The notes under the pieces were generated by a model. It searched no databases. It saw only the letters and a program-made list of their open reading frames with translations, and was not told where the DNA came from. DNA of 64,000 bases from Ignavibacteriota bacterium (GTDB lineage: Bacteria > Bacteroidota > Ignavibacteria > Tepidaquicellales > Tepidaquicellaceae): the NCBI GenBank assembly GCA_026390735.1, contig JAPLFJ010000006.1, forward strand, positions 1 through 64,000, written 5' to 3'. Position 1 is the stretch's first letter; each line of letters begins with the position of its first letter. Made by a program: the position numbers and the translations under genes. Positions 29,608 to 60,880 of this stretch are shown here, piece by piece.

Positions 29608-29638
29608 TTGTTTTTCAAAAGATATTTTAGTATATTTG
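29608..29638 (+). promoter_or_regulatory. Promoter of 11-nt array locus A
   Basis: TTG (29608-29610) and TATATTTG (29631-29638) are exactly 20 bases apart. The same TTG-N20-TATATTT arrangement precedes the arrays at 35.5 and 60.5 kb, which argues that the loci are transcribed rightward. Confidence 0.6.
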
Positions 29639-29960
29639 TACTTAGTTATCTGAATAGGTATTTGCCTATAAACACCGTTGAGCATACCAATGAAATTCAG
29701 ATAATACCGAAAATCAACCTTTCAAAAAAAGAATCAGGAAAATGGCGCAGTAGTGGCGCACACGTGACGCAGTTTTGGCGCAGATGTTTGCTTAGAGCTG
29801 ACTTTGAGCACGCTGAGAGCATGCTGAAATGACACAGAATAGTACTGATTTTTATGCTAAAATACTCATCCCCTCTATCCCAAGCCTGTATAATATATAG
29901 ACAATTTTATAATAGTGTAATTACTTTTTTGGCTATTATTGTAATTATTCCTGTTAAGAT
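29639..29960 (+). ncRNA. Putative transcribed 11-nt array locus A
   Basis: The leader forms a long hairpin: TTATCTGAAT (29647-29656 region) is the exact complement of ATTCAGATAA about 35 nt later. An A-rich block (29724-29743) leads into eight in-phase 11-nt units, 29740-29827. The first four follow NNNTGRCGCAS; units six to eight begin GAGC. After the array, TGACACAGAATA and CCTGTTAAGA blocks are shared with locus B. No ORF spans it and the period is not a multiple of three. Function unknown. Confidence 0.5.
29740..29827 (+). repeat. 11-nt periodic array, locus A
   Basis: Units in order include AAATGGCGCAG, TAGTGGCGCAC, ACGTGACGCAG and TTTTGGCGCAG, then ATGTTTGCTTA, GAGCTGACTTT, GAGCACGCTGA and GAGCATGCTGA. 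Eight units stay in the same 11-nt phase. Confidence 0.8.
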
Positions 29961-29976
29961 TAATTCAACAGACAGC

Positions 29977-30075
29977 AGTACACATGGTATACACAGGCAA
30001 TACACTCTATATAGGGAATTAATACACTCCATATAGACTTTTAATACAGACTAAATACACACGGTATAGAGAAAT
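29977..30075 (+). repeat. Nine-unit 11-nt array, ATACAC type
   Basis: Nine consecutive 11-nt units begin with (A/T)ATA(C/G) or close to it; six carry TACAC or TACAG (for example TATACACAGGC, AATACACTCTA, AATACACTCCA, AATACACACGG). Alternate units pair into a visible 22-bp repeat. The array lies between locus A and the IS110 left region and could belong to either. Confidence 0.75.
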
Positions 30076-30084
30076 CTGATTTTT

Positions 30085-30400
30085 CAGGAGATATCTGGGT
30101 ATAAACGTACAACTCCTGCGGAGTGTGGAGCAGGAATACTGGAACAAGCTGGAAGCTTGTTTTACTTTCAAAAGCAATTTTGGTTCAAATCCTGAAAGAT
30201 ATAAATACACAAACTCTAATGGGAAAATGACCAGGGTCGGGATCTTGAATTACAAGAACTTATTGTGTTGGTGCCTTCCCAAGCAGGAGAGGCTGTGTGA
30301 AAACACCCAAAAAGGATGTCGGTATATTGGAAAAAGGTCTCACTTCCATTAGCGGTGCATAAATACTAATTTCAAGTATTTAAAAATTGGCATCTCAAAA
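30085..30400 (+). ncRNA. Structured left-end region of IS110 element, candidate bridge RNA
   Basis: This non-coding stretch precedes the transposase. It contains several hairpins: TCCTGC/GCAGGA (30114-30119 and 30130-30135), AACAAGC/GCTTGTT (30143-30149 and 30155-30161), TCTTG/CAAGA (30243-30257) and GTGT-GAAA-ACAC (30295-30306). IS110-group elements transcribe a bridge RNA from the segment upstream of the recombinase gene, whose two loops base-pair with target and donor DNA. I cannot fix the ends or loops without a covariance model. Confidence 0.45.
30361..30381 (+). promoter_or_regulatory. Hairpin before the transposase start
   Basis: AAATACT and AGTATTT form a perfect 7-bp stem with a 7-nt loop, 37 bases before the transposase ATG. 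It could end the candidate bridge RNA or limit transposase translation. Confidence 0.4.
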
Positions 30401-30417
30401 ATGAAAGGAGACCTAAA

Positions 30418-31449
30418 ATGTGTACGGAAAAGATAAGTACAAAAAGTGTTAAAATCAATAACGATAAATATGAGTATTATATTGCAATTGATTATTCACA
30501 AAGAAATATGGCAATAGCCACAATAAGAAATGATGGTAACAAACCCAGAGTTATAGATGTAGATTCAGACATAGATCATCTGAAAGCCTACTTAATTAGC
30601 TTAAAGGGAAGAAAGATAGTGACAATAGAAGAAACCACATCAACTCATTGGTTGTATGTAGAATTGTTTGAATACGCAGAGAAGATATTAGTATGCGACC
30701 CCTACAGAAATAGTTTATTAAGTGATGGACCGAAGACAGATAAGCTGGATGCTTCAAACCTTTGCAAACTATTAAGAAGCGGTCTATTAAAAGAAGTCTA
30801 TCACAGCTTAGACAAGAAGTATGAATTAAGACAACTTGTAAGTGAATATGAGCAATTAGTGAAGTTTGGTGTAAGGGTGAAGAATGAGAAATCTGCAATA
30901 TACAGAAGTATGGGAAAATCCTACCAGAAGAAAGAAGATATAGGAGACGATACACTTGCTTGGATAATAACCCAAAAAGACAAAAGGATAGACTTATACG
31001 AGAAGCAAAAGAAGGAATACGATAAAATGTTTTCCAAAAAAATAAGCCATGACACGGAATTAAAACATCTAAAGGACGTAACAGGCATAGGCACCATAGG
31101 AGCAGTAAAGATATTAGCAACAGTAATAGATGCAAAACGATTTAAGAATGAAGGTAATTATTTAAGCTATTGCGGCCTTGTAAAATATCAAAAGATGAGC
31201 GGCGGCAGAAATTATGGACAGAAGAAAACAAGATACAGCCGAAGGTTAAAGTCAGTATATAAAACAGCAGCAATGTCAGTCATCAATGGTAATAGTCCAT
31301 TAAGAGAATATTACGATTCATTGTTAAAAAGAGGGCTGTCAGAAGAAAATGCACGAAATCAATTATCAAGACGCATAGCAATAATAACATATGGAATATT
31401 AAAGACGGGTACGAAATACAACCCATATAAATGGAGAGAATCAAAGTAG
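30418..31449 (+). CDS. IS110-family transposase (DEDD recombinase)
   Basis: 343 residues, full length. The N-terminal RuvC-like domain has the DEDD set: Asp25 (AIDYS), Glu71 (TIEET), Asp108 and Asp111 (KTDKLDA). The C-terminal Transposase_20 domain carries LKDVTGIGTIGAVKIL and the candidate catalytic Ser261 in KMSGGRNYG. IS110 recombinases insert without terminal inverted repeats, guided by a bridge RNA. AAAGGAG lies upstream. The reading frame is intact, so the element could be active. It is flanked by long non-coding stretches on both sides. Confidence 0.95.
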   Translation: MCTEKISTKSVKINNDKYEYYIAIDYSQRNMAIATIRNDGNKPRVIDVDSDIDHLKAYLISLKGRKIVTIEETTSTHWLYVELFEYAEKILVCDPYRNSLLSDGPKTDKLDASNLCKLLRSGLLKEVYHSLDKKYELRQLVSEYEQLVKFGVRVKNEKSAIYRSMGKSYQKKEDIGDDTLAWIITQKDKRIDLYEKQKKEYDKMFSKKISHDTELKHLKDVTGIGTIGAVKILATVIDAKRFKNEGNYLSYCGLVKYQKMSGGRNYGQKKTRYSRRLKSVYKTAAMSVINGNSPLREYYDSLLKRGLSEENARNQLSRRIAIITYGILKTGTKYNPYKWRESK

Positions 31450-31993
31450 ACAGAAAACAAGACTAAATATAAAAGCACAACTAATTTGGTTAGAGTCCCT
31501 GAAAAGACTACCAATAGTTTAAAAGAAAAGAGCAGATGGATGATGTGGTAAAAAAGATAATGAGAAAGTTTATTCAAAAGAATATTATAAATTGTTTTAA
31601 AAAGTTGTTTTAAAGAAATGGAGAGAGAGTTCAACGGGGATGATGCAGCTCAACAAAATATAGGGCAATCCTTATTTTGTCGATGACATGCCAATTTGTC
31701 GGTTAACCCTCTCCGGTTTTATTCTAAAATTTACCGTAGCCCAAGTATCTACATGTTAGATCAGAGAGCTCAAATAGACGCATAGAAAAAACAATAAAAC
31801 AAACAGACATCGAGTAAAGAAAGAACGGCAACTAAAACAATAATAAACTTTTGTTCTTTTAAACAGGTATAAGTTCTACTAAGGAAGTTCGACCAAATGT
31901 CAGAACGGAGTATTAACTTTCGTTAAGGGTATAGTGTTTTCTCTTGACATTTTTTTCCATAGACATCCCCTTCTTTTTGTCATTCCCTTCTTT
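31450..31993. other. Non-coding region right of the transposase
   Basis: No convincing ORF. It holds an ACAAAATA/TATTTTGT hairpin (31653-31680) and a TTGGT-AGTC/GACT-CCAA imperfect hairpin at about 31482-31510. It probably includes the right end of the IS110 element and old intergenic DNA. GTCATTCCC units begin at its right edge. Confidence 0.45.
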
Positions 31994-32216: not shown

Positions 32217-33560
32217 ATGAAAAGAATATCATTACTCATATTGTTCCTGTTGTTTTTTGCCACGGCATTCCAGTCGGATAAGTTAATAACTCAGGGCTGG
32301 TATCAGCAGTTCTTTCCGAATTTGAACGGAAGCAGTATTACGAGCATTACTTTTCTTGATAGTCTTACGGGATATGCAGTGACAAACACAAACTCTACCT
32401 TGCAAGCTTATATCTTGAAGACTACTAATGGAGGTGATAATTGGAATATTAATTATACTTACACCCAAACAAATTCTAATTGGAATTTTGTGAAAATTGG
32501 ATTTGTAGATTCAAATACTGGTTATGCATTTGGTTGGACTGAAATGTTTAGAACAACAAATGGAGGTGCAAACTGGGAAGTCATCATAAATAATTTGTAT
32601 GCAAATGACATTGCAATAATAAATAAGGATACAATGTTAGCAGTAAAAAACAGTGGTTTTAACGGTGGTGTTTACCGCTCTACAAACGGCGGTTACAACT
32701 GGCAGGCAATGGGGCCGACAGGAGGAAGCGGTCAGCCATCTACTATTTACATGTACAACAAAAACATGGGATTCTGTCTTGGCGGTGAAATGCGTAAAAC
32801 CACAAACGGAGGTGTTAACTGGTTTGCAATACCCGGTGAAACATACACAAGTATAATGTTCGTTGATAGTTTGACGGGTTGGAAGTGTTATGACAGTATT
32901 AAGAAAACAACAAATGGCGGTTTAAATTGGTTTTCGCAACAAACTCCAAATGTCAGTCAAGGTTTTTGGGGTCCTTCAAGTTTCTCTGCCATTAACAAAG
33001 ATACCGTTTGGATGGTGGGTGCTTTAAGTAATTACACGAACCCCGTTAATCCAATATATAAAACTACAAATGGCGGTTTAAACTGGGGATATCAGAATGC
33101 CGATTCTACTCATATAGTAGGTCTTTTCGGGTTTATTCAGTTTGTAAATGACAAAGTAGGTTGGGCGAAGTCAGGTGGCCAAACTTACGAATTGCATACT
33201 GTAACAGGCGGTAACGTCACTACATTCTTCACAGGCATCAAACTCGTGCCAAGCATAGTGCCCGAAAAGTATTCCCTCGGACAAAACTATCCGAACCCGT
33301 TTAACCCAACGACAAACATTCCGTTCGAACTCAAAGAGCCTTCGCACGTAACTCTGAAAGTATTCGACGCCCGCGGTCGCGAAGTGAAAGAACTCGTCAA
33401 CGGACGCTGGGGCACAGGAAAGTTCATCGCCGATTTCAACGTCCACCTCGGCGGATCTGCGACCATCGCCACAGGAATCTACTTCTATCAGATTATAGTA
33501 TCGGGCGAATCCACTCACCAGATTTTTACGGAGACGCGAAAGATGATGTTTTTAAAGTGA
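32217..33560 (+). CDS. Secreted Ycf48/BNR-like repeat protein with sorting domain, paralogue 1
   Basis: 447 residues. Signal peptide (MKRISLLILFLLFFATAFQ). The body is built of Ycf48/BNR-like blades, each with a TTNGG(xN)W motif (for example KTTNGGDNWNI, RTTNGGANWEV, STNGGYNWQA), giving a predicted beta-propeller. The C-terminal sorting domain begins YSLGQNYPNPFNPTTNIPFEL and ends KMMFLK, so export by a type IX-like system is likely. A GC-rich insert (VHLGGSATI) interrupts the sorting domain compared with its paralogue at 33843. Function of the propeller is unknown. Confidence 0.87.
   Translation: MKRISLLILFLLFFATAFQSDKLITQGWYQQFFPNLNGSSITSITFLDSLTGYAVTNTNSTLQAYILKTTNGGDNWNINYTYTQTNSNWNFVKIGFVDSNTGYAFGWTEMFRTTNGGANWEVIINNLYANDIAIINKDTMLAVKNSGFNGGVYRSTNGGYNWQAMGPTGGSGQPSTIYMYNKNMGFCLGGEMRKTTNGGVNWFAIPGETYTSIMFVDSLTGWKCYDSIKKTTNGGLNWFSQQTPNVSQGFWGPSSFSAINKDTVWMVGALSNYTNPVNPIYKTTNGGLNWGYQNADSTHIVGLFGFIQFVNDKVGWAKSGGQTYELHTVTGGNVTTFFTGIKLVPSIVPEKYSLGQNYPNPFNPTTNIPFELKEPSHVTLKVFDARGREVKELVNGRWGTGKFIADFNVHLGGSATIATGIYFYQIIVSGESTHQIFTETRKMMFLK
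33436..33470. repeat. In-frame GC-rich palindromic insert in a sorting domain
   Basis: CCACCTCGGCGGATC lies where the neighbouring paralogue (about 35031-35048) has only a short ASQF coding stretch. A nearly identical CCCGCCTCGGCGGGTC interrupts the sorting domain at about 59512-59527. Both stay in frame. Confidence 0.7.
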
Positions 33561-33617
33561 CAAAGTAACAGAGTGACAAAGTGACAAGGTATTAGAGCGA
33601 GTAAGATACTCCTTAAT

Positions 33618-33726
33618 TTGTCATTCCCTCATGTTTTAAGAGGGAATCCATAAACATAAAGATTGGACGACCCATATAGTATCACCTGTAATGTGGATTC
33701 CCGATAAGTTCGTTCGGGAATGACAA
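33618..33726. repeat. MITE-like GTCATTCCC/GGGAATGAC element, copy 2
   Basis: TTGTCATTCCC at 33618-33628 faces GGGAATGACAA at 33716-33726. It corresponds to 31994-32104, and the following about 115 bases up to the start codon are also duplicated (AATGTGTATTATCTGAAATC is identical). Confidence 0.75.
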
Positions 33727-33842
33727 GATTGGGTAGGTGACTCCGAAGGAATGTTGCGGATAAGAAGAATAATCCCATATCCCCCAAAAATGTGTATTAT
33801 CTGAAATCCCAAAACATTAAATTACATCACACCAGAAGAAAA

Positions 33843-35138
33843 ATGAAAAGAATATCTTATATAATCATTTTACAACTGCTACTTACTTTTAATTATTGTA
33901 ACAGTCAGTGGTATCAAATCAACTTACCAGTTGCAGGTAGTGTTTACAAAATGCAGTTTACAAATACCAGTACCGGCTGGGCAACTGTTAAACAGACCAA
34001 CAATCACTATACTCTCATTAAAACTACAAATTCCGGCTTAAACTGGTTTTCGATTTATTCTGATTCTGCAAAGGTCATTACATTTCAATTTATCAATGAT
34101 ACGCTTGGTTATGCAATGGGTAAATATGAGGGATTTTATTTGATGTCTAAAACTTTGAACGGCGGAAATAACTGGACTACAATGCAGAGTTCATATTCTG
34201 ACGTTTATAGCGGCTTTTATATGGTAAATGCGGATACGGGATGGGTAAACGCGTTTGCACTTCCGACTCAAATTACATTAAGAACAACAAACGGATTTCA
34301 AACGCTCGAACAAATATCAAGCGGCGCCGGCGGTTCGTCTGCGACTTTATTTTTCTTCAAAGAAAAGTACAACGGAGAATATTGCGGTTACTTACTCGGA
34401 GCAGGCTTGTTTTGGAAAACAACAAACAGTGGTTTTACTTGGCAGCAAATTAGTACGGGTTCCTCTGATAATGTGAACAGCTTCAGTTTTGTAAATAAGG
34501 ATACAGGTTGGGTAGTGATAGGTGCTTTCACAAACAATAATAAAATACTAAAAACAAATAATGGCTGTTTAAGCTGGTCTACTCAATTTTTGGCAACATT
34601 AGGTAATGCACTCAATATATTCGCTTTAACTAAAAATAGAATATGGTGCGGTGCAACTTCCAATTTGGTTTTTACAAGCACAAATTCCGGTATCACGTGG
34701 GGGACACAAGCAAGCGCCATACATGCCAATGCTTGGATATACATGGTTGATTCATTATTAGGGTTTACCTGGTCGGGTAATGATTTTTATATGGCAAGGA
34801 CTACTAACGGCGGAGGGGCAATAACCGGCTTAAATCAATCCAGTACAGAAGTACCGGAAGAATATTCCCTCGGACAAAACTATCCGAACCCGTTTAACCC
34901 AACGACAAACATTCCGTTCGAACTCAAAGAGCCGTCGCACGTAACGCTGAAAGTATTCGACGCCCGCGGACGCGAAGTGAAAGAACTCGTCAACGGACGC
35001 TGGGGTAAGGGAAAGTTCATTGCCGATTTCGACGCTTCGCAATTCGCCACAGGAATCTACTTCTATCAGATAATAGTCTCGGGCGAAACCACTCACCAGA
35101 CTTTTGCGGAGACGAGGAAGATGATGGTTTTAAAGTGA
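33843..35138 (+). CDS. Secreted Ycf48/BNR-like repeat protein with sorting domain, paralogue 2
   Basis: 431 residues from ATG 33843 (MKRISYIIILQLLLTFNYCNS signal peptide); an upstream in-frame ATG at 33792 lies in the duplicated leader and is rejected. Propeller blades again carry KTTNSGLNWF, KTTNSGFTWQ and related motifs, but the blades have diverged strongly from paralogue 1, while the C-terminal sorting domain is almost identical at DNA level for about 150 bp (from YSLGQNYPNPFNP onward). This contrast points to gene conversion or selection for the export tag. It ends KMMVLK. Confidence 0.87.
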   Translation: MKRISYIIILQLLLTFNYCNSQWYQINLPVAGSVYKMQFTNTSTGWATVKQTNNHYTLIKTTNSGLNWFSIYSDSAKVITFQFINDTLGYAMGKYEGFYLMSKTLNGGNNWTTMQSSYSDVYSGFYMVNADTGWVNAFALPTQITLRTTNGFQTLEQISSGAGGSSATLFFFKEKYNGEYCGYLLGAGLFWKTTNSGFTWQQISTGSSDNVNSFSFVNKDTGWVVIGAFTNNNKILKTNNGCLSWSTQFLATLGNALNIFALTKNRIWCGATSNLVFTSTNSGITWGTQASAIHANAWIYMVDSLLGFTWSGNDFYMARTTNGGGAITGLNQSSTEVPEEYSLGQNYPNPFNPTTNIPFELKEPSHVTLKVFDARGREVKELVNGRWGKGKFIADFDASQFATGIYFYQIIVSGETTHQTFAETRKMMVLK

Positions 35139-35476: not shown

Positions 35477-35507
35477 TTGACATTTAATAAAATATTTAGT
35501 ATATTTA
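35477..35507 (+). promoter_or_regulatory. Promoter of 11-nt array locus C
   Basis: TTG (35477-35479, within TTGACATTTA) and TATATTTA (35500-35507) are 20 bases apart, the same arrangement as at loci A and B; locus B also has TTGACATTTA. Confidence 0.55.
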
Positions 35508-35800
35508 TGTTTATTGTGTGAAGTGGATTCAATAATCTGCCGCTTTGCTAAATATAAATTGTTTTTTCCTTTAGAATAGCCTAATTCTATGAAAAAACAA
35601 CAAATAGGGCATTTATCCACTTCAAACACACTTCAAACACACTTCAAACGCACTTTTCCTTCGTTTCTCTTTCGGTTCACTGTCGTGTTCCTTATAGTCT
35701 CTATATATTCAACCCGTACAAAACTACCACCAAATCATTCATGGTCGTCTATAAGAGCAATGACCTTTATATTAAATTCAAACTCAACGCATCCTTATTC
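35508..35800 (+). ncRNA. Putative transcribed 11-nt array locus C
   Basis: A leader of 110 nt after the -7 element contains GAAGTGGAT (35519-35527), the exact complement of ATCCACTTC at the start of the array, and a TAGAAT/ATTCTA hairpin. The array of seven units follows, then CTATATATTCAA and GTACAAAACT blocks that resemble locus B. It lies about 140 bases before ispF, so a 5' UTR role for ispF is an alternative. Function unknown. Confidence 0.45.
35618..35694 (+). repeat. 11-nt periodic array, locus C
   Basis: CACTTCAAACA occurs twice, then CACTTCAAACG and CACTTTTCCTT, and in the same phase CGTTTCTCTTT, CGGTTCACTGT and CGTGTTCCTTA: seven units with C at position 1, T mostly at positions 4-5. 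Confidence 0.8.
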
Positions 35801-35836: not shown

Positions 35837-36316
35837 ATGACAGATTTTAATTTCAGAATAGGTTACGGTTACGATGTTCACAGACTCGCAGAGGGCAGAA
35901 AGCTGATTCTCGGAGGCGTGGAAATTCCTCACAGCAAAGGTCTTGAAGGTCATTCCGATGCCGACGTACTGCTCCACGCAATATGCGATGCAATTCTCGG
36001 AGCGGCTGGTTTTCAGGATATAGGACATCAGTTCCCGAATACCGACCCTGCCTTCAAAGACATCTCAAGTTTAAAATTGCTTAAGCACGTCTATGATTTA
36101 ATATCAAAGGATGGATGGAAAGTCGGCAACGTTGATTCTATGATTATACTCGAAGAACCTAAGATTGCAAAGTACATTCCCGCGATGAAGAAGAATATCT
36201 CAGAGATTATCGGATGCGAACATATATCAATTAAAGCCACTACATCCGAAGGTCTCGGATTCGTTGGCGAAAAGAAGGGCTGCTCTGCAAATGCCGTTAC
36301 TATACTTCACAAATAA
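35837..36316 (+). CDS. ispF: 2-C-methyl-D-erythritol 2,4-cyclodiphosphate synthase
   Basis: 159 residues, normal length. Zinc ligands are Asp13, His15 (GYGYDVHRL) and His47 (DADVLLHAICDA); other hallmarks are GLEGHSDAD, DIGHQFPNTD and the C-terminal KATTSEGLGFVGEKKG. It forms the cyclodiphosphate in the MEP pathway of isoprenoid synthesis. Its stop overlaps the PAP2 start by one base. Confidence 0.97.
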   Translation: MTDFNFRIGYGYDVHRLAEGRKLILGGVEIPHSKGLEGHSDADVLLHAICDAILGAAGFQDIGHQFPNTDPAFKDISSLKLLKHVYDLISKDGWKVGNVDSMIILEEPKIAKYIPAMKKNISEIIGCEHISIKATTSEGLGFVGEKKGCSANAVTILHK

Positions 36317-59624: not shown

Positions 59625-60383
59625 CTAATCGTCATACTTTATTATATTTTTGGTGTAGTCTTTCTTTTTATCTTCGGGAATAAAATCAACAAGTTCTTCG
59701 AAGAAAGTGTCAGTCCATTCGTACTTATTCTTCAGGTCATTATACTTAACAGCAGCAACCATAAGATAAGCTTTCTCTGCTAAGTACTTAACCTGTTCAG
59801 CTCTGTAATACTGACGGAATCTTAAAGAAGTATATACATCACCGCTATCCTGTTCAATCGTTTGAAAATCAGTACCCGAGTAAAAACTTTTCCTCCTTAT
59901 AAAACCATCATCAACTTCATCAAAATATCTGTCAAGAATAAATACACAGAATACATCATAAGGCGGTTCAAGATGCTTGGGGATTGCACGTTCGAGTTTA
60001 AAATCGAATGTAATGTAAGAATCTTCAATAACAATGTTCTTAACAGAACTTTTGTCAAAGCTGACAGGAGTAATTCCAATGCCGGAAAGTAAACGTTCAT
60101 AAGCGACAAAGTCTTTATTACGAATCATAAGTTTAGTGTTGTCGTTCAAACCTTCAACATCAAGAGTTTTCCAGAATTCTCTGAGTTTAGGACAGCGGCG
60201 AAGTTCGTGATTAAGTCTTTGCCTTCTCGAGAAAACTTTTCGCATAGTTTTCACTTTTTCGCTCTTAGTATTATACCTGCTTGGCACGGGAGAAATATAC
60301 GGTTTACCATATCTTAAGCGGGAAATAAAATTTCCGAATTTACCTCTTAGTTTTCCAAAGGAGCTTTTATCAAAATACGCCAT
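59625..60383 (-). CDS. Conserved hypothetical protein
   Basis: 252 residues, no signal peptide and no membrane helix. The N-terminal 60 residues are rich in Arg/Lys (FGKLRGKFGNFISRLRYGKPYISPVPSRY, then RKVFSRRQRLNHELRRCPKLREFW) and loosely recall DUF6266-like proteins of Bacteroidota; the rest appears to be a beta-rich domain. The compact start and good coding character support a real gene. The role is unknown. It is convergent with the sorted-protein gene and followed on its upstream side by array locus B. Confidence 0.7.
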   Translation of the reverse strand: MAYFDKSSFGKLRGKFGNFISRLRYGKPYISPVPSRYNTKSEKVKTMRKVFSRRQRLNHELRRCPKLREFWKTLDVEGLNDNTKLMIRNKDFVAYERLLSGIGITPVSFDKSSVKNIVIEDSYITFDFKLERAIPKHLEPPYDVFCVFILDRYFDEVDDGFIRRKSFYSGTDFQTIEQDSGDVYTSLRFRQYYRAEQVKYLAEKAYLMVAAVKYNDLKNKYEWTDTFFEELVDFIPEDKKKDYTKNIIKYDD

Positions 60384-60511: not shown

Positions 60512-60880
60512 TAATACATTACATTAGGGAACCTAAAACACAATTCAAGAGTATAATAAGTGAACAGTCCCTGATTTTTGACCAAAAACCTGCATTTCTA
60601 AAAAAAGAATCAAGAAAATAGCGTGTTAGTGACGTGAAACTAGCGTGAATCTGACGTGAATTTCGCGTGAGATTAATTGTATATTCTCCTTAGATCTTAC
60701 TGAGAGCTGGTAGTAAGCACCGACAAAGTGACGACAGAATACCATATAATTGCTATAATATTTCAAGGGTATTTGTACAAAATTTATCCCTACACTAGTG
60801 AAAATTTCCAAAGACTTCGTGTTGTAATCCTGCTATTCCTGTCCCAACAAAATTATCCTGTTAAGACGTATCAAAATCCG
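60512..60880 (+). ncRNA. Putative transcribed 11-nt array locus B
   Basis: The leader holds a UUAGGGA/UCCCUGA stem (one G-U) around a 36-nt loop, an A-rich block at 60600-60619 that differs from locus A by one base in twenty, then five units following NNNTRRCGTGA. After the array GAGCTGG, TGACGACAGAATA, TGCTATAATA and CCTGTTAAGA blocks are shared with locus A. No ORF. Function unknown. Confidence 0.5.
60616..60670 (+). repeat. 11-nt periodic array, locus B
   Basis: Five in-phase units: AAATAGCGTGT, TAGTGACGTGA, AACTAGCGTGA, ATCTGACGTGA, ATTTCGCGTGA. Weaker in-phase units continue (GATTAATTGTA, TATTCTCCTTA, and AAGTGACGACA at 60726-60736). Confidence 0.85.

Follow-up and report, generated by a model that had tools for sequence, protein, structure and literature searches.

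Structure and surroundings of the ATACAC array

The window analyzed here is a 64,000-nucleotide stretch from the genome of an Ignavibacteriota bacterium (contig JAPLFJ010000006.1, positions 1 to 64,000; the whole genome, G000, comprises 69 contigs and 4.0 Mb). Positions 29977 to 30075 hold a row of tandem 11-nt units, the ATACAC array, which is flanked on the left by locus A, with an 11-nt array of its own, and on the right by an IS110-family insertion sequence. The ATACAC array is very probably a member of a wider class, the 11-nt tandem arrays associated with DUF6266-like protein modules.

Read from position 29978, the units are GTACACATGGT, ATACACAGGCA, ATACACTCTAT, ATAGGGAATTA, ATACACTCCAT, ATAGACTTTTA, ATACAGACTAA, ATACACACGGT, and ATAGAGAAATC, the last of which extends slightly beyond 30075. 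The original prediction, made from the letters of the window, described nine 11-nt units forming a 22-bp super-repeat, and this periodicity is real: the joint lag-11/22 score was 91, whereas 300 dinucleotide shuffles of the 820-bp region around it never yielded that value in any 99-nt stretch at any period from 7 to 30 (shuffle maximum, 79). Identities at lags of 11, 22, 33, and 44 nt were 0.50, 0.61, 0.56, and 0.53, respectively, and Tandem Repeats Finder reported a period of 22 at 29999-30048 with 82% matches. The lag-22 score is the highest among all 99-nt stretches of the window, and none of the other arrays in a comparison of 34 shows so large an excess of lag 22 over lag 11. Most units had been described as starting with AATACAC or TATACAC; strictly, ATACAC starts four of the nine, ATAG starts three, and GTACAC and ATACAG start one each. 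Strict alternation of two 11-nt unit variants, giving a 22-nt super-repeat, also occurs at L086:4526, at L097:15006, and upstream of the C65 family gene. The array matched no Rfam family at the gathering score, and a coding repeat was rejected, as no open reading frame (ORF) is conserved across copies.

The insertion sequence is a bystander. Four other left ends of the same element were found in G000, and in each the similarity to the window starts at the base equivalent to 30317; the flanks to the left of these copies are unrelated and contain no array. The right end, also placed by comparison of copies, lies near 31970. With its left end at 30317, the element begins about 240 bp to the right of the ATACAC array, which had been thought to stand just before it; the proposals that the array is part of the IS110 left region, or that it supplies binding sites for the recombinase, fail on the four array-free left ends. 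On the right side, a palindromic target (CATCCCCGC..GGCGGGGATC) is common to the flanks of several copies, while the left flanks are unrelated. The interval separating array from element holds short dispersed repeats that are found in several copies in the genome, at 30144-30170 and 30273-30304 (AACAAGCTGGAAGCTTG..., GGTGCCTTCCCAAGCAGGAGAGG...).

Linkage of 11-nt arrays to a protein family

Half of the copies of locus A, which are described below, stand beside a divergent gene encoding about 252 aa, the start of which lies about 210 bp from the array start, and other 11-nt arrays also precede genes homologous to this one. A family profile search identified 40 paralogues in G000 and 22 in G004, an uncultured Ignavibacteriae bin of the same genus (LaPlata-15m-a_bin-535), and none in three further genomes of the genus, G001-G003. 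The protein family and the locus A family co-occur in G000 and G004, and neither is present in G001-G003.

The arrays are strongly biased toward the upstream side of these genes. In G000 the best tandem period was 11 or 22 in the 600 bp upstream of 29/40 paralogues, compared with 4/40 downstream. Strong arrays, defined by a score of 0.60 or more, were found upstream of 20/39 genes, but in 0/40 downstream regions, 0/37 gene bodies, and 15/1500 random 600-mers. Seven of 89 other long intergenic regions also contained one (Fisher p 1.4e-7); this control took the regions preceding other genes wherever at least 250 bp there were free of ORFs, and may include two family genes. Period 11 or 22 was best in 11/12 cases in G004, and array linkage was likewise evident in another genus, represented by G008. 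A deeper profile recovered homologues in 44/395 Bacteroidota genomes, and period 11 or 22 was best upstream of 20/29 distant homologues and downstream of 1/29, a set that includes several orthologues, and hence not all independent cases. Among four distant homologues checked against Pfam, three exceeded the DUF6266 cut-off and one was unassigned.

The link of the family to DUF6266 (PF19781) runs through these distant homologues. None of 30 G000 paralogues matched that model at E 0.1, the whole G000 genome gave no match at E 1e-10, and the window protein falls below the Pfam cut-off. No convincing match to a family protein was found in Pfam, PHROGs, NCBIfam, or PDB, and none among the PADLOC defense models. 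A phage or plasmid origin was rejected, since tblastn with one family protein each found no match in phages or plasmids. In a limited literature search, no paper mentioned DUF6266.

A class of arrays and the ATACAC unit type

When 462 kb of G000 was scanned for tandem periods of 7 to 30, period 11 was the outlier, with nine arrays of entirely different unit sequences. Two relatives, G028 and G029, for which searches recovered no family protein, had zero period-11 arrays in 400 kb each. The ATACAC array has the 11-nt period over several units and shares its unit type with gene-linked arrays; no family gene lies beside it, the family gene of the window being at 59625-60383. The class, which occurs before an uncharacterized protein family and as stand-alone copies, is apparently undescribed: literature on 11-nt and 11-bp repeats did not describe it, the claim of novelty being bounded by the limited reach of that search.

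The unit type itself was followed through G000-G004 with the pattern TACAC-N6-TACAC-N6-TACAC, one mismatch being allowed. In G000 the pattern occurs in six places at five loci (C42, C50, C37, C46, and C55); G004 has it at two loci, and G001-G003 lack it. At C55 and G004:C243, arrays with TACAC in 11-nt phase stand 175 to 180 bp before family genes, and of the four other G000 loci with ATACAC units, one is gene-linked. An orphan array at C37 has retained a leader that, by eye, resembles the leader preceding gene C58b, and in the five cases that could be judged the ATACAC-type array shares its strand with the promoter or gene. Because TACAC arrays precede family genes at C55 and G004:C243, the ATACAC array is, from sequence comparison, an orphan of a unit type that would also serve in gene leaders.

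Coordinates of the features discussed are collected in Table 1. The third array locus of the window lies directly upstream of an ispF-like gene at 35837 and has relatives at G000:C58 and at G004:C433 and C575. Elsewhere, an orphan TGCGGT array (L092:6150-6239) and a gene-linked one (L087:15045-15143) largely share their order of unit variants, as if copied whole; on contig C1, a Cas9-like gene (L087:9868-14367, 1499 aa) adjoins the TGCGGT array and its family gene. Positions 32217-35138 of the window encode two adjacent homologous BNR/YCF48-like proteins, 39% identical, with a C-terminal secretion tail.

Table 1. Arrays, associated elements, and genes in the window
Feature	Position	Strand	Basis
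Promoter-like TTGTTT-17-TATATTTG of locus A, kept in family copies	29608..29638	+	Sequence only
5' stem-loop of putative locus A transcript (GTTATCTGAAT / ATTCAGATAAT)	29645..29705	+	Double-sided changes, hand-aligned
Conserved A-rich linker CTTTCAAAAAAAGAATCAGGAAAA	29719..29742	+	Seven true G000 copies; G004
Locus A 11-nt array: four TGGCGCANNNN units, then NNNACTNAGAG-type units	29743..29863 (end about)	+	Pooled lag-11 identity
ATACAC/ATAG-type 11-nt array with 22-bp super-repeat, orphan	29977..30075	+	Lag identities, Tandem Repeats Finder, unit type at four other G000 loci
IS110-family insertion sequence, bystander (ORF 30418-31449)	30317..31970	+	Boundaries from other copies; NF033542, E 7.6e-42
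Third array locus: promoter-like TTGACA-17-TATATTTA, leader, CACTTCAAACA array from 35618	35477..35710	+	
Array-linked DUF6266-like family protein, 252 aa, divergent from array C42b	59625..60383	-	
Second locus-A-family copy (C42b), TRGCGTGNNNN array; array start about 235 bp upstream of protein start	60619..60740	+	

Locus A and the origin of the ATACAC array

Locus A (29608-29863) has seven true copies in G000 and five in G004. In every copy, a promoter-like TTG..TATATTTG is accompanied by a leader, the conserved linker CTTTCAAAAAAAGAATCARGAAAA, and an array of 11-nt units; the genes neighboring the copies vary, and orphan copies without an adjacent protein gene retain the promoter-like sequence and the 5' stem. 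In this stem, double-sided changes occur in 4/6 pairs over 9/12 copies. RNAalifold, applied to the complete locus A alignment, gave no convincing fold for the array. In the window, the locus A array comprises 29743-29786 and a degenerate second block reaching about 29863, so that the gap to the ATACAC array, originally put at about 150 bases, measures about 115 to 190 bp. Pooled over the 12 copies, lag-11 identity was 0.68 for units 1 to 4 and 0.46 for units 5 to 10, against a background of 0.26 to 0.29, and was near background past about 110 nt. Array length changes by whole units; the alignment of C39 with C42a, for instance, has a gap of 11 nt. Among GTDB genomes, a strict pattern scan matched only the LaPlata Ignavibacteriae bin, and no array pattern was found in the viral contigs scanned.

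The suggestion that the ATACAC array is an extension of locus A is supported by one relative and opposed by another. The paralogous copy C39 carries two to three such units, GCAATACACTC..ATAGGGAATT (GCAATACACTCCGAATAGGGAATT), at a matching offset from the array start (+253 versus +254; score 33, reached by 2/300 shuffles). However, G004:C224, an IS110-free orthologue with the same upstream genes, has no ATACAC array; its alignable similarity to locus A stops at 29826. The absence from the orthologue makes the array look like a recent, locus-specific expansion, and the units at the same offset in C39 indicate that it probably expanded from a short tail common to at least two locus A copies.

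A proposed mechanism and its alternatives

The account that we favor, tentatively and a little short of calling it probable, is that arrays and DUF6266-like proteins form modules with RNA-level autoregulation and orphan decoys. The analysis shows the array class, its positional tie to the gene family, their co-occurrence, the layout of promoter, stem, and array at sequence level, and independence from IS110. From the linkage, from the co-occurrence, and from what is known of how phased direct repeats work, we infer binding of protein to array; transcription and decoy action are likewise predicted. Each array would be a row of sites, one per 11 nt, for a small basic DUF6266-related protein; arrays in the leaders of family genes would mediate autoregulation by the encoded protein, and the RNAs of orphan arrays would act in trans as decoys or partners. 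The locus A RNA would run from the promoter through the 5' stem, the A-rich linker, and the array into the ATACAC array, a second, orphan array downstream on the same strand. The original suggestion of host factor binding sites fits this account, the candidate factor being the paralogous DUF6266-like family and not the recombinase.

The arrays would be repeated protein-binding sites, read, on our leading account, in transcribed RNA, with DNA operators as a close rival. The RNA level is favored because orphan copies keep the promoter, the covarying stem, and the strand; an RNA-level mechanism, judged from such sequence features, is a credible possibility. Several observations weigh against it or against the wider reading. 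The stem counts lean toward a real structure, but the arms were aligned by hand. Two orphan arrays, L091 and L093, lie between convergent genes and have no visible leader. DUF6266 genes proper have weaker arrays, some with period 10 and some with none, and a 10-nt period suits helical phasing on DNA. Overall, arrays with similar units do not significantly tend to accompany similar proteins (Mantel rho 0.08; 791/5000 permutations), so one-to-one specificity between array and protein is hypothetical. The reversed TACAC pattern gave four matches in G000, making the pattern only moderately specific, and the match between the ATACAC and C46 arrays is weak (27; shuffle maximum, 28).

The strongest alternative, possible but on balance doubtful, operates on DNA: the 11-bp direct repeats would be double-stranded operator-like or centromere-like sites, one per helical turn and on one face, bound cooperatively by DUF6266-like proteins for autorepression or chromosome organization, with orphan arrays as sites in trans. 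The spacing of 11 bp, which is 10 bp at some DUF6266 genes, corresponds to roughly one helical turn, the arrays stand upstream of genes, and for several orphans located between convergent genes no leader is visible. There is also precedent in plasmid ParR proteins, that of R1 requiring at least two 11-bp repeats and that of pB171 binding 10-bp repeats (PMC9426499). On the other hand, sites acting purely as DNA would have no need of a promoter or a covarying 5' stem, yet both persist in orphan locus A copies, and the locus A family arrays sit downstream of their own promoter.

It is improbable that the arrays are by-products, minisatellites that arose where replication slipped in intergenic DNA under weak constraint, with the period of 11 favored by enzyme geometry. 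Changes in unit number by whole units, as between C39 and C42a, unit sequences that change fast and do not track the protein, and the orthologue without an ATACAC array would all be expected. The strong positional bias to one gene family, with none downstream, is not, nor is the absence of arrays in sampled relatives without the protein; moreover, conservation between G000 and G004 covers array and leader, whereas the sequence beyond cannot be aligned.

That the array encodes guide RNAs in the manner of CRISPR or TIGR, perhaps for use by the IS110-like protein, is very unlikely, and this reading was rejected: the units do combine a conserved and a variable part, and the protein matches the NCBIfam Tas endonuclease model weakly (47 bits; cut-off, 100), but an 11-nt period cannot contain 36-nt TIGR guides, the variable part of 4 to 5 nt is too short for a guide, and no other IS110 left end has the array. 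Ownership of the ATACAC array by IS110, as recombinase binding sites or part of the left end, has nothing but closeness in its favor and, given the four further left ends with unrelated flanks, virtually no chance of being correct.

If the module account is correct, it would describe a new kind of repeat-reading protein system. The account would unite scattered 11-nt arrays in a single class whose many members diverge in sequence, it predicts that cognate orphan arrays form a network, and it would give DUF6266 and its relatives, whose function is uncharacterized and which reach up to 40 copies in one genome, a characteristic nucleic-acid partner as a first testable lead. It is conceivable, though less than probable, that this amounts to a phylum-wide, undescribed regulatory or ribonucleoprotein system in Bacteroidota, with a private leader array for each DUF6266-like paralogue and a network of orphan RNAs linking the paralogues in trans, some of which, as here, have two unit types.

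Comparison with known systems

TIGR arrays, which consist of 8- to 12-nt repeats separated by 9-nt spacers and encode 36-nt guides (PMC12045711), are likewise tandem arrays beside genes, and the adjacent IS110 protein gives a weak Tas-like signal, but their 36-nt units with 9-nt spacers differ from the 11-nt period here. TAACTGA heptamer repeats of Beggiatoaceae, Cyanobacteria, and some Bacteroidetes (PMC4679880) have a 7-nt period, a single common sequence, and no reported linked protein family. With DUF6266 the relation is closer, as some distant Bacteroidota homologues recovered by the same profile pass its cut-off and have upstream 10- or 11-nt arrays, although the window protein and its paralogues fall below that cut-off.

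CsrA/RsmA proteins bind sites in mRNA leaders and are titrated by the decoy RNAs CsrB/RsmZ, which carry repeated sites. The working proposed here, with leader sites and decoy RNAs, would be alike; the arrays differ in that they lack GGA hairpin repeats, hold strictly to 11-nt tandem spacing, use units specific to each locus, and go with an unrelated protein.

The ParR/parC pairs of R1 and pB171, which belong to ParMRC partition systems, resemble the arrays in their 10- and 11-bp direct repeats, small protein, and family-specific sites (PMC9426499), binding being predicted in our case. Unlike parC, the arrays are chromosomal, are spread over tens of loci, and include orphans with a structured leader; the family protein has no Pfam, NCBIfam, or PDB relation to ParR, and no ParM or ParR homologue was recognized. 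ParR/parC and the Csr decoy RNAs are the closest systems in working, not in kinship.
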